Shown in pieces: positions 17,684 through 22,825 of a stretch of 64,000 nucleotides of DNA. The first letter of the stretch is position 1. Every line of letters starts with the position of its first letter. The position numbers and the translations under genes are program-made. Origin of the DNA: Elusimicrobiota bacterium. GTDB lineage: Bacteria > Elusimicrobiota > Elusimicrobia > UBA1565 > UBA9628. The DNA lies in the NCBI GenBank assembly GCA_023213235.1, contig CP096137.1, positions 1,437,587-1,501,586 of the forward strand, written 5' to 3'. The notes under the pieces are model-generated. The model did not search any database. It worked only from the letters and a program-made list of their open reading frames with translations, and was not told where the DNA came from.

Positions 17684-18530
17684 TTACGCGGGGACGGCCG
17701 TCCGGGCGGGGGCCGGAAGCAGGGCGGGCAGCGCCGCGAGCGCGTCGCGCTCGCCGAGCTCGACGGCGGGCAGGCAGTTCCTCGTGACGAAGCCGAGCAT
17801 GCTGAAGTCGAGCGTCTTCGACGGGATGATCTCCACGATGCGCGGGGGCGCGGCAGGGCGCGCAGCGAGGCGAGGCCCTGGTCGACCTCGTTCAAGTTGG
17901 CCTCTCGGACCTGCTGCTCGCGCCGCGCGAGCGGCCCCAGTGCCGGCGGCCGCGCTCGTCGGGGCGCACGGGGCGGATCGCGACGACGGTCTCGCAGCCG
18001 GCGAGGTCGAGGAAGTGGGCGCCGTCGACGCCGGCCGTGCCGCCGTCGCGGTAGTAGTGCGGGCCCACGCGCACGCGCGGGTAGACGAGCGGGATCGCGC
18101 AGGACGCGACGAGCCGGTCGGCGAGCGGCCCGTCCCAGCCGCGCGCGCCCTTCGGCGTGAAGCGGGAATAGACGGTGCGCCGGTCGTGATCGCGCAGGCT
18201 CAGCACGGTCAGGTCGCAGATCGCGTCGCGGCGCGCGCGCTCGTCGTCGGCCGCGTACGAGACGAGCTCCCACGCGGGATCGCTCGAGAACACGCTCGCC
18301 GGAAAGAGGCGCGGGCGCAGGCGCAGGGCGCGGATCGAGTCGGCGTCGCGCCAGTGGCGCATCTCCTCGGGCAGGCGGCCCGTGAAATAGGCGCCGCCGT
18401 TGAGGGCGCCGGCGCTGACGCCGACGATCTTGTCGAAGCGCAGAGACTTCGAGAGAGTCTCGAGCGCGCCTCCCTGCCACGAGCAGAGGGCGCCGCCGCC
18501 GGGAAGGACCAGGCCGAGGGGACCGTTCAT
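17684..18530 (-). CDS. Patatin-like phospholipase, two frameshifts
   Basis: The patatin signature is clear: an oxyanion glycine loop (LPGGGALCSWQGG), the nucleophile elbow GVSAGALNGG and the catalytic Asp in YRDGGTAGVDG. Such enzymes hydrolyse acyl chains from phospholipids. The C-terminus leaves frame at 17935-17938 and again at 17844-17848. Adding one base in each gives a smooth reading through LARREQQVREANLNEVDQGL and RIVEIIPSKTLDFSMLG to the stop at 17684, about 283 residues in all. The start at 18530 is preceded by a TACAAT box. Confidence 0.85.
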
Positions 18531-18538
18531 CCGCCTAC

Positions 18539-18544
18539 ATTGTA
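18539..18544 (-). promoter_or_regulatory. -10 box upstream of the patatin gene
   Basis: TACAAT on the minus strand, 8 bases before the ATG at 18530; a nearly leaderless start. Confidence 0.55.
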
Positions 18545-18586
18545 GCAACGTGACGGTCCGGCCGCCTGGGGCATAAGGCCCAGGGG

Positions 18587-19240
18587 TTAAAAGAGCGTCG
18601 GCTGGTCCGGAACAGGCTCGATGAGGGCCGCGTCGTCGGCCTTCGTCGAGTTCACGCGGGGGAGACCGGGTAGGCCTCGAGCGCGCCCGCGTAGGGCGCC
18701 AGCAGGGCCTTGAGCGCCGCGGGGAAGCGGCCGGGTCGAGCCACGCCGCCTCGTCGTCGGGTCTGAGGATGACGGGCATCCGTCCGTGTATCGTCTTCAT
18801 CAGTTCGTTGGGCCCCGTCGTCACGATCGTGAACGTGCGCCGCCCCTCCCACGTCTCCCAGAGCCCCGCCATCGCGAACGGCGCGCGGTCGGGGCGGACG
18901 ATGCGCATCGGGTCTTGGCCCTTCCACTCGTAGAACCCGTCGGCGGGCACGAGGCAGCGCTTGGACTCGAAGGAGCGCTTGAAGCTCGGCTTCTCGGCGA
19001 CCGTCTCGGAGCGCGCGTTGACGAGCTTGTGCGCGACGTTCGGGTCCTTCGCCCACGCGGGGATCAGGCCCCAGCCGTGATGGCGCAGGACGCGCCCCTC
19101 GGGCTCGAGCACGATCACCGGCGCCTTCTGCGACGGCGCGACGTTGTAGCGCAGGGGAGTTCGTCCACGTCCGCGGCCTTCAGGCCGAAGCGTTCGCGCA
19201 GGAGCGTCATGCTCTGGGCCACGGTGTAGCGCGCGCACAT
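18587..19240 (-). CDS. yedK: SOS response-associated peptidase (SRAP, YedK/HMCES), three frameshifts
   Basis: SRAP proteins form a covalent thiazolidine link to abasic sites in single-stranded DNA through Cys2 and protect them. Here Cys2 (MCARYTV), the NVAPSQ motif, NARSETVAEKPSF, CLVPADGFYEW and the active-site HGRMPVILRPDDEAAWLD are all visible. Single-base gaps occur at 19154-19157, 18733-18735 and 18658-18662. With them repaired the protein runs from 19240 to the stop at 18587, about 218 residues, the normal size. It is divergent from the polymerase operon across a LexA-type box. Confidence 0.92.
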
Positions 19241-19246
19241 GGGGAA

Positions 19247-19252
19247 ACGCTA
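19247..19252 (-). promoter_or_regulatory. -10 box for SRAP (weak match)
   Basis: TAGCGT on the minus strand is exactly 6 bases from the ATG at 19240, as in other leaderless starts here. The LexA-type box lies 26 bases further upstream. Confidence 0.35.
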
Positions 19253-19271
19253 TCAAAAAACCGTCTGGGTC

Positions 19272-19300
19272 TTGCGATCGAACGGATGTTCGATTATACT
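19272..19300 (+). promoter_or_regulatory. Sigma70-type promoter of the polymerase operon
   Basis: TTGCGA (19272-19277) and TATACT (19295-19300) are separated by an ideal 17 bases. The ATG at 19307 follows after 6 bases, so the transcript is probably leaderless. The spacer holds the LexA-type box. Confidence 0.8.
19279..19292. promoter_or_regulatory. LexA-type SOS operator
   Basis: CGAACGGATGTTCG is a perfect inverted repeat of the form CGAAC-N4-GTTCG, the consensus of the Bacillus-type LexA (DinR) box. It sits between the -35 and -10 boxes of the polymerase operon and just upstream of the divergent SRAP promoter, a position where repressor binding would block transcription. Confidence 0.8.
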
Positions 19301-19306
19301 GTCTGC

Positions 19307-19891
19307 ATGAAGTTCCTCTCCGACGGGCGACTGCCTCCCGGGCGTCACGCGGTCTCCGGCCCCGGCGACCTGTGCGGGCGGTTCCTGACCGCGCTGTGCC
19401 CGGCGCTGCTGCGCGGCGCGCGCGTGCTGTGGCTCGACGGCGGCAACTCCTTCAACGCCTACGGCGCGGGCTACGCCTCGCGCGCGCTCGGCGCGGGCGC
19501 GCGGGACGCGCTCTCGCGCGTCGAGCTCGCGCGGCCCTTCAACCTCCACCAGCTCGAGACGATGGTCAAGGTGAAGGTGCCCGAGCGCTGGCGCGGCGAG
19601 CCGGTGATCGTCGCCGATCCGCTGCCCTTGTTCTACGACCCGGACGTTCCCGCCGCCGCCGCGCGCCGCGTCTGGGAGCGCGTGCAGGAGGGGATGGACG
19701 CCTTGCCCGCGGCGTGGGTCGTGCTCCTGCCGGAGCGCCGGGCGCCGGACGACAGGCTGGGCTGGGACGAGAATTTCATCCGTCTCGCCGACGGTTTCAC
19801 GAGGTTCCATGGGACGAACGCTTCCGACGATCGTGCAGACGCTCCAGGCCGAGGAAGAGGCCTGGAAGCTTTTCCGCCGGGCTCTCCGTAA
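19307..19891 (+). CDS. RecA-fold-like protein of the polymerase operon
   Basis: About 194 residues. The central part (RGARVLWLDGGNSFNAYG, then YASRALGAGARDAL, PVIVADPLPLFYDPD, AWVVLLPERRA) follows the strand order of RecA/RadA-type cores, with a GNxFNxY phrase like the one in archaeal Rad proteins. I see no Walker A loop, so ATP hydrolysis is doubtful. I chose the ATG at 19307, set by the promoter; the frame begins slightly earlier. The last 80 bases overlap the next gene, and the tail there looks out of phase, so a small frameshift near 19800 is possible. It may be a recombination accessory factor. Confidence 0.6.
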   Translation: MKFLSDGRLPPGRHAVSGPGDLCGRFLTALCPALLRGARVLWLDGGNSFNAYGAGYASRALGAGARDALSRVELARPFNLHQLETMVKVKVPERWRGEPVIVADPLPLFYDPDVPAAAARRVWERVQEGMDALPAAWVVLLPERRAPDDRLGWDENFIRLADGFTRFHGTNASDDRADAPGRGRGLEAFPPGSP

Positions 19892-20072
19892 GGAAGACCA
19901 GGAGGCGTTCGACGCGCTGTGGCGCTTCGCGCGCTACCACGCCGCGCCCGCCTCGATGGCCAGCCGCCCGATGCCGTTCGAGGCGGCCGTGATGGCCATG
20001 CTCGTCGCCGTCGAGCGCCAGGTCATCGACATGCGCCGGGAAAAGGAAGAGGATGGACGCGTGGATCTTTGA
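19809..20072 (+). CDS. Small helical protein of the polymerase operon
   Basis: An 87-residue, largely helical protein (EEEAWKLFRRALRKEDQEAF, AVMAMLVAVERQVIDM) without membrane segments. It overlaps the genes on both sides (83 and 20 bases), which points to translational coupling in an operon with the family-B polymerase. No family is recognised. It could be a small polymerase-binding subunit. Confidence 0.65.
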   Translation: MGRTLPTIVQTLQAEEEAWKLFRRALRKEDQEAFDALWRFARYHAAPASMASRPMPFEAAVMAMLVAVERQVIDMRREKEEDGRVDL

Positions 20073-22265
20073 CGCGTACCCCGAGGACGCGGGCATGCGC
20101 GTCTGGCTCGTCGAGCGGGGCGGCGGCCGCCGCTCGGTCCTCGATCCGTGGCGCCCGTTCTTCCACGTCGGCGGCGACCGCTCCCAGCTGACGCGCGTCC
20201 TCAAGCTCCTGCGGAGCCTGCCGTTCCCGGTCGAGACGGCGGGCGTCGACCGCGCGGAGCTGTTCTCCGGGGATTCCCTGCGCGTCCTGCGGGTCACGGT
20301 CCCCGTGTTGGAGCGCGACCGCCTCGTCAAGCGCCTCGCCGCGCTCGAGGTCCCGCTCTACGACGCCGACGTGCACCTGGTCCAGACCTGGCACTACGAC
20401 CGCGGCCACTTCCCGCTGGCGCTGTGCCGCTTCACGCTGGAGGGCGACCGCCTCGTCTCCTTCGAGCCGCTCGACGACCCGTGGGCGCTCGACTACGAGC
20501 TGCCGTCCCTGCGCTTCCTCCACCTCTCGCCCGCGCCGTCCGAGGTCGCGGGCCGGCTCGATCCCAACCACGCGCCGGGCCTGCGCCTGCTCCTCACGAT
20601 GGACGGGCGCGTCTCCGAGCTCGAGGGCCCGGTCCGCCAGCAGCTGGAGACCCTGGCGCGGCGCATCAAGTCCTGGGACCCCGACGTGATCACCACCGAC
20701 TGGGGCGACAGCGTGCTGATGCCGCAATTGGAAGACCTCGCGCGCGAGCACCGCGTCCCGCTCGGCTTCTCGCGCGACGTCCTGCGCCCGGCGGGCAGCC
20801 GAAAGGAGAGGACGTTCTACACGTACGGCCGCGCGGTGTATCAAGGCGGGGCGCGCTATCTCTCCGGCCGCTGGCACCTCGACGTGAAGAACTCCTTCAT
20901 GATGCGCGAGACCGGCCTGTCCGGGCTGCTCGAGATCGCGCGCATCGCGCAGATCCCGGTCCAGCGCGCGGCGCGCTGCACGATCGGCACGAGCCTGTCC
21001 TCCATGCAGACCTCCTGGGCGTGGCGGCGGGGAATCCTGATCCCGATGGACAAGCAGCAGGCCGAGGACTTCCGCCCGGCCGGGGACCTGCTCGTCGCCG
21101 ACAAGGGCGGCCTCGTCTACGAGCCCGAGGTGGGCTGGCACCGGAATGTCGCCGAGTACGACTTCACGTCGATGTACCCCGAGATGATGGTGCGCCGGAA
21201 CATCTCGCCCGAGACCGTGAACTGCGCGTGCTGTCCCGACGCGTCGACGCCGGAGATCGGCCACAGGCTGTGCGCGCGGCGCCGGGGACTCGTGCCGTCG
21301 GTGCTCGAGCCGATCCTGCGCAAGCGCGCGAAGTACAAAGCCCTGTACAAGGCGGGCGGTCCGGACGCGGCCGAGCACAAGCGCCGCGCCGACGCGCACA
21401 AGTGGTGCCTCGTCACCTGCTTCGGCTACCTCGGCTTCAAGAACGCGCGCTTCGGCAAGATCGAGGCGCACGAGTGCGTCACCGCGTGGGGCCGCGAGGT
21501 CCTCCTGCGCGCCAAGGACGCGGCCGAGAGGCGCGGCGCACGCCTGCACCACGCCCTCGTCGACGCGCTGTGGGTCACGGTTCCGGCGGGAACGGACCTG
21601 GAAGAGCTTCGAACAGCCATCGAGGCCGAGGCCGAGTGTCCGCTGGCCCTCGAGGGCGTCTACGAGTGGATCCGTTTCTGCCCGTCGAAGCGAGACAAGC
21701 TCGCGGGCGTCCCGGGCCGCTACTTCGGCGCCTTCACGGACGGCAAGCTGAAGATACGCGGCATCGCCGCGCGCCGGCGCGACACGCCGGGCCTTCTGAA
21801 GTCCATGCAGTCGGACCTGCTGTCGCGGCTGGCGCGCGTGGCGCCGGGCGGGAGCCTCGAGGCGCTCGTGCCGGAGCTGCGCGACATCGTGGACGACTAC
21901 CGCTTTCGTTTGAAAGAAGGACAGGTGACGGCCGACGAGCTCGCGATCACCTTCCATCTCTCCCGCGAGCCCGAGGACTACGTGCACGACACCGTGTCCG
22001 CGCTCGCGGCCAAGCAGCTCGCGGCCGCGGGGTGAAGCTCCATATCGGAGAGGGGATGCGCTACGTGATCACGAGCGCGGGAGACTCCGTGAAGGAATGG
22101 CGCTCGAAGCCGCTGAGCCTGATGGAGAACGGGCTCGAGTACGACGTGAAGAAGTACCTCGAGCTGCTGGAGCGCGCGGCGGAGGAGATTCTGGACGGGC
22201 TCGCGCCGAAGCAGCGCCCGCGTCCGCGCGGCGAGCTGGAACTGCCCCTGCTATTTGGAGGCTAG
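20053..22265 (+). CDS. Family-B DNA polymerase, compact, frameshifted near 3' end
   Basis: An archaeal-type polymerase of about 737 residues. Polymerase motif A is DFTSMYPEMM, motif B is KWCLVTCFGYLGFKNARFG, and motif C is HALVDALWV, which keeps the essential second Asp but has Leu for the first of the usual DTD. The exonuclease region is degenerate: Exo I lacks the DxE pair, so proofreading is probably lost. The thumb ends with KLHIGEGMRYVI and YDVKKYLELLERAAEEIL, reached only if one G is added in the run 22029-22032; as printed the frame stops at 22035. An SOS-regulated, proofreading-deficient enzyme suggests translesion synthesis. Confidence 0.88.
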
Positions 22266-22825
22266 AGCCTGGGTGATCTTGCGGCGCGAGGCCTGGAGGA
22301 GTCGATCACGGAGTCGGCCTGGCGCTCGAGGCGCCGGAACTTGCCGGCGGCGCACTCGGTCTTGATCGCCTGCGCGGCCTCGATGGACTTCGTCATCGGC
22401 TCGAGCAGGCGCTCGAGCTCGGCGGCGATGCGGGCCTTGTCGCTCTCGGCCGGCTTTCCCGCGAGGTTCGCGCCGACGGACTGAAGCTCGTCCTTCACCG
22501 CCGTCAGCCGCTCCTGCAGCTCGGCCTGGCGCTCGCTCCTCTTCTGGATGAGCGTCGCGCGGCCGGCGATGAGGCGCGTCGAGGCCTCGGCCTGGTCGCG
22601 GGCCTCCTGGAGCGCGGCGCCGAACTGCTGCATGGCGGCGGCCAGGCCCTCGCCGCTCGCGGCGACGCGCGAGAGGATCTTCAGCCCCTCGTCGAGGCCG
22701 CCGTCGGTCTCGACGTCGAGCCGGTCCATGTCGGCGGCGGCTCTCCCCAAGTCGCGGAATTCCGCGTCGAGCTTCAGCGCGAGGCGGCCGAACGGGGTCA
22801 GGTCTTCCGGTCGGATGGCGGCCAT
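22262..22825 (-). CDS. Coiled-coil helical protein of unknown function
   Basis: About 187 residues, almost wholly alpha-helical with heptad-like stretches (RLIAGRATLIQKRSERQAEL, ERLLEPMTKSIEAAQAIK) and no membrane segment or signal. The ATG at 22825 shares a base with the protease stop (TGATG), so the two are coupled. The last 18 residues (DSSRPRAARSPRL) look out of phase. One added base near 22306 would give a helical ending (LLQASRRKITQALASK) and a stop at 22251. It may be a cytoplasmic partner of the exported protease, but this is unproven. Confidence 0.65.
   Translation of the reverse strand: MAAIRPEDLTPFGRLALKLDAEFRDLGRAAADMDRLDVETDGGLDEGLKILSRVAASGEGLAAAMQQFGAALQEARDQAEASTRLIAGRATLIQKRSERQAELQERLTAVKDELQSVGANLAGKPAESDKARIAAELERLLEPMTKSIEAAQAIKTECAAGKFRRLERQADSVIDSSRPRAARSPRL

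Follow-up and report, generated by a model that had tools for sequence, protein, structure and literature searches.

Comparative sequence evidence for LexA control of a PolB2 mutasome operon in Elusimicrobiota

Introduction

In the genome of an Elusimicrobiota bacterium, an operon that includes a gene for a family-B DNA polymerase stands next to a divergent gene for an SRAP protein, with a LexA-type box between them. The arrangement raises the questions of whether the polymerase operon belongs to the SOS response and whether the SRAP gene belongs with it. The locus lies in a stretch of 64,000 nucleotides (contig CP096137.1, positions 1,437,587 to 1,501,586), here called the window.

PolB2 is a translesion polymerase of archaeal origin that has passed into bacteria. 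There the genes of the PolB2 mutasome stand in the order iRadA-PPB2-PolB2, with an enrichment in the neighbourhood of lexA and to some extent also of SRAP genes (Timinskas 2025, PMC11791011); its heteropentameric complex is a model prediction (PMC11791011). Bacterial PolB2 has been listed as group G2, with Pol II as G1 (PMC12926913). The contexts of SRAP genes given by Aravind 2013 are umuDC, dinB, and imuAB-dnaE2 (PMC3765255). SOS control of PolB2 had been suggested by adjoining lexA genes, and the Elusimicrobiota operators described below supply concrete promoters on which LexA control can be tested. A sequence-only reading of the window had held that SOS-controlled family-B polymerases with degenerate proofreading, outside Pol II, are sparsely described in bacteria. 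This has to be qualified, as the three-gene PolB2 set itself was published in 2025; what is new here is the comparative evidence on its regulation.

Identity of the operon genes

The features of the locus are given in Table 1. The operon has the order iRadA-PPB2-PolB2 on one strand, and successive genes overlap. The gene order given by the sequence-only reading, a RecA-fold-like protein, a small helical protein, and a family-B polymerase with a divergent SRAP gene, stands.

Table 1. Features of the SRAP-PolB2 intergenic region and the flanking genes, in window coordinates.
Feature	Position	Strand	Basis
SRAP (abasic-site-shielding SOS-associated protein)	18587–19240	-	PF02586 core 18738–19172, E 5e-54
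-35 hexamer TTGCGA	19272–19277	+	promoter scan
LexA box CGAACGGATGTTCG (CGAAC-N4-GTTCG, perfect)	19279–19292	+	exact-match search; sits in promoter spacer
-10 hexamer TATACT	19295–19300	+	promoter scan
iRadA (RadA/Rad51-fold protein without ATPase motifs)	19307–19891	+	profile search, AlphaFold model
PPB2 (small helical partner, MGRT N-terminal arm)	19809–20072	+	agrees with the definition in PMC11791011
PolB2 (family-B polymerase, degenerate exonuclease region)	20053–22265	+	NCBIfam and Pfam family-B matches

The iRadA product (194 aa) matches archaeal RadA in a profile search (E 4e-8) and has no Pfam match, and no Walker A motif was seen in its sequence. RadA/Rad51 proteins are the top structural matches of its AlphaFold model (pLDDT 84.5). 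A RadA fold lacking the ATPase active site and the N-terminal domain is the published mark of iRadA, and this is what was found. The profile and structural matches make the earlier label of a RecA-fold-like protein more exact: it is an inactive RadA. Identification of the first gene as imuA was rejected, since the profile matches RadA/Rad51 and imuB and dnaE2 are missing from the genome.

PPB2 begins with MGRTLPT, which is unchanged across 13 loci. It also weakly matches two phage protein families (phrog_26583 and phrog_30126), and a tblastn search of phage records with PPB2 gave no match.

The main frame of polB2 extends over 20053–22035, and a homologous tail continues in another frame to the end of the gene. 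The product scores 354 bits against NF004416, which is under the equivalog cut-off, and also matches PF00136. Alignment with 11 relatives placed motif A (DFTSMYP), motif B around K450, and MDK at 332–334, and showed that LVD at 502–504 replaces DxD, the first Asp being gone. No exonuclease-domain match was obtained in the profile search, in which the PF00136 match covers the polymerase part only. These features bear out the earlier description of a family-B polymerase with degenerate proofreading.

Because the gene order, the MGRT arm, the PolB2 motifs, and the RadA-like partner are the published marks of the system, the three genes are assigned from their sequences to a PolB2 mutasome operon. 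Known here from sequence alone, the operon resembles the described PolB2 mutasome (PMC11791011; archaeal type Dpo2, Sulfolobus islandicus) in these marks, including the DK motif and the missing first Asp of DxD, as well as in its lost proofreading and its lexA and SRAP neighbourhood. It differs in that lexA lies outside the operon, the operon has its own LexA box, and SRAP is divergent. E. coli Pol II (polB) is likewise a LexA-controlled family-B polymerase, but it has active proofreading, is not accompanied by iRadA or PPB2, and belongs to a group separate from PolB2.

Promoter and LexA box

The TTGCGA and TATACT hexamers are separated by a spacer of 17 bases that is filled by the box. They form the only promoter-like site in 18500–22500, against 0.1 expected in shuffled sequence. 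The box is the sole exact CGAAC-N4-GTTCG match within the window, and its chance of occurrence is ~2e-4 per 60-bp promoter. Exact matching and the promoter scan confirmed the earlier placement of a perfect box between the -35 and -10 hexamers of the operon and beside the start of the divergent SRAP gene. The -35 hexamer of most sister operons, and of most lexA genes, reads TTGACA. The start codon follows close behind the -10 box (window 19295–19307), as it does at several sister lexA and operon promoters, which suggests that 5' untranslated leaders at these promoters are very short or absent.

Nine exact boxes were found in the whole genome, a number that is not above chance (dinucleotide expectation ~11); hence the meaning of the box comes from its position and conservation. 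Five of the nine stand at promoters, namely those of lexA, recA, umuDC, a PA0069-family radical SAM gene, and the PolB2 operon, and the other four fall inside genes. The lexA gene (TIGR00498 above cut-off) has an identical box 15 bp before its start. The sequence-only reading had named absence of the box upstream of recA and lexA as grounds for giving up SOS control; it is present at both. The recA promoter region (L018 near 4066) contains several overlapping CGAAC/GTTCG half-sites, more than one box. Chance as the origin of the operon box was rejected: a single box and the genome count are compatible with chance, but position and conservation rule it out.

Conservation of the box and covariation with LexA

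The exact box is present in 8 of 9 operons from the window's genus and one neighbouring genus, and the ninth has one mismatch. The sister operons share the layout TTGACA-TCGAAC-N4-GTTCGA-TATACT, which is also the layout at their lexA genes. In other Elusimicrobiota, whose PolB2 operons often begin with lexA, the same promoter position is occupied by lineage-specific palindromes such as CACTACAAATGTAGTG, CTGGACAATTGTCCAG, and CCCTACATATGTAGGG.

The palindromes vary together with the recognition helix of LexA. Helices of the form SSPDT(I/V)QYHL or KSPDTVQYHL pair with the TCGAAC/GTTCGA box, SVGTxQDQ pairs with CTAC/GTAG arms, and SSVAYH or SSVDYH pairs with GnACA/TGTnC arms. In two genomes (G225 and G274; loci L190, L191, L112, and L115) the operon is split into separate lexA, iRadA, and PPB2-PolB2 units, and each unit carries TTGACA and a -10 box along with a palindrome matching the LexA type of the genome concerned. 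Within the open-access literature, nothing was found on Elusimicrobiota LexA boxes or on PolB2 with LexA beyond the 2025 paper (PMC11791011), and we know of no earlier report there of such covariation with operators on the pieces of a split operon.

The proposal that the Bacillus-type GAAC-N4-GTTC box is common to all bacterial PolB2 operons was rejected, as it was found at 7 of the 66 loci scanned and at none outside the window's genus and the one neighbouring genus. Other PolB2 lineages use other boxes. In Nitrospirota (L119, L123, and L130), the lexA start codon lies at or close to the centre of perfect palindromes such as GGTAGTCATATGACTACC, which possibly represent another type of LexA box.

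LexA control of the PolB2 operon is well supported because the box stands at lexA and recA, is kept in sister operons, and covaries with the LexA helix. The operon is thus very probably LexA-controlled, and the earlier assignment to the SOS response is upheld. Given the operator evidence, direct LexA control would be the expected state for PolB2 operons in Elusimicrobiota, and the phylum would offer a case of a bacterial SOS response whose LexA box has been replaced several times over on an unchanged promoter design.

Proposed role and other SOS polymerases

We are highly confident that the operon encodes a PolB2 mutasome, with PolB2, iRadA, and a PPB2 trimer expressed from one LexA-repressed promoter for lesion bypass. 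In undamaged cells, LexA bound to the box between the -35 and -10 hexamers would block RNA polymerase. Formation of RecA filaments on damaged DNA would lead to self-cleavage of LexA, and its loss would allow expression of the operon along with recA, lexA, umuDC, and the PA0069-family radical SAM gene. The error-prone PolB2, without proofreading, would form a complex with the inactive RadA paralogue iRadA and the PPB2 trimer, and this complex would extend primers across lesions, probably while anchored to the beta clamp through a C-terminal motif. SRAP, whose gene diverges from the shared promoter region, may be induced along with the operon and shield abasic sites, but as an optional companion.

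No imuB was found in the genome, where the sole Y-family match is UmuC-like, and no dnaE2 was found, a single DnaE being present. A umuD-umuC pair with an SOS box is present. The genome thus has two SOS-boxed mutasomes, one Pol V-like and one PolB2, and no ImuB-DnaE2. The suggestion that the operon stands in place of the imuB/dnaE2 mutasome therefore holds as far as the absence of the latter is concerned, but the operon is not the sole SOS mutasome, as umuDC is also boxed. Like ImuA-ImuB-DnaE2, the operon is SOS-controlled and combines a recombinase-fold accessory protein with an error-prone polymerase; it differs in having a family-B rather than a family-C polymerase, a RadA-like rather than a RecA/SulA-like accessory protein, and no ImuB.

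Frame breaks in SRAP and polB2

The SRAP gene is not one open frame: three different frames carry its N-terminal, core, and C-terminal parts, with breaks at about 19155, 18725, and 18660. There is one further break near 22030 in polB2. Such breaks could mean that the cassette is decaying and that both proteins have lost function. However, all of them fall in G/C runs and each fits one missing base, the three in SRAP share the same sign, and homology continues beyond every break. The umuDC genes of this one-contig genome are likewise broken (L019 2513–4048), and its completeness is 84% versus 91–97% in polB2-bearing congeners. Decay is thus very improbable. Because of the G/C-run positions, the broken umuDC, and the low completeness, assembly errors of the homopolymer type known from long-read assembly are the most likely cause.

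Linkage of SRAP to the PolB2 operon

Across the frame breaks, the SRAP protein begins with MCARYT, Cys2 being present, ends with DQPTLF, and belongs to PF02586. Its domain, MC start, and SOS-gene neighbour are as in SRAP/YedK/HMCES proteins. A polB2 neighbour, as found here, is outside the contexts of PMC3765255 and is an enrichment reported in 2025 (PMC11791011).

Conserved linkage of SRAP with the polymerase in relatives, the lack of which the sequence-only reading had named as counting against its cassette, was not found within the phylum: SRAP adjoins the operon in 1 of 15 polB2-bearing genomes, namely this one, with short flanks at a few loci. This SRAP belongs to a lineage different from that of the congeners' SRAP, which stands elsewhere in the sister genomes, and no LexA box was found at the SRAP genes retrieved for relatives. 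The idea that the phylum inherited the linkage from its ancestor was rejected on the grounds of adjacency in one genome only and the different SRAP lineage. Nor did the promoter scan of 18500–22500 find a promoter-like site facing SRAP.

These observations are those expected if SRAP came to adjoin the operon through an incidental rearrangement and only the polymerase operon is LexA-controlled, a reading to which we give a little less than an even chance. It has to be set against recurrence of the adjacency in other phyla, where it arose independently: SRAP is divergent from iRadA in four Ignavibacteriota/Bacteroidota loci (L137, L141, L142, and L143) and downstream of PolB2 in two Nitrospirota loci (L122 and L124), and the SRAP genes concerned belong to separate SRAP lineages. 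The published enrichment of SRAP near polB2 (PMC11791011) also speaks against an incidental origin.

The same recurrence and enrichment favour a second reading, that SRAP and PolB2 are one dedicated abasic-site tolerance unit, with both genes under LexA control from the intergenic region that they share and both proteins bound to the beta clamp. SRAP would crosslink to single-stranded DNA at abasic sites, and PolB2 would then take over the stalled end. In favour of this reading, the SRAP start is 38 bp from the LexA box and several SRAP proteins have QxxLF-like tails. An SRAP gene is also carried by 13 of the 15 genomes with polB2, compared with 53 of the 280 other genomes (Fisher p 9e-8, uncorrected for phylogeny). 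With the adjacency private to this genome within the phylum, the sister SRAP genes boxless, elsewhere, and of another lineage, and no promoter-like site towards SRAP, we consider the dedicated unit somewhat unlikely. The earlier claim that the genes act together on damaged DNA thus keeps its part concerning a translesion role of the degenerate family-B polymerase, and a functional tie of SRAP to PolB2 is plausible but loose, not that of a fixed cassette.

C-terminal tails and SRAP domain structure

PolB2 ends with ELPLLF in the window, [DE]LPLxW in sister genomes, QLRLF in G225, and QIPLF in Ignavibacteriota. SRAP ends with AQGDLF in congeners and DQPSLF or GQRELF in other Elusimicrobiota. The tails of both proteins resemble beta-clamp-binding motifs. 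Such a motif has already been reported for PolB2 (PMC11791011), and no report of one in SRAP was found in the literature. On a speculative and, in our view, unlikely reading, bacteria have several times combined SRAP and the PolB2 mutasome into an abasic-site tolerance unit that is tethered to the clamp and controlled by LexA; SRAP (QxxLF) and PolB2 (ELPLLF/QIPLF/QLRLF) would then meet at the same stalled clamp.

In several SRAP genes (family f5; G045, G081, G115, G221, and others), the PF02586 match is broken into two parts, which gives the impression of an insertion within the SRAP domain.
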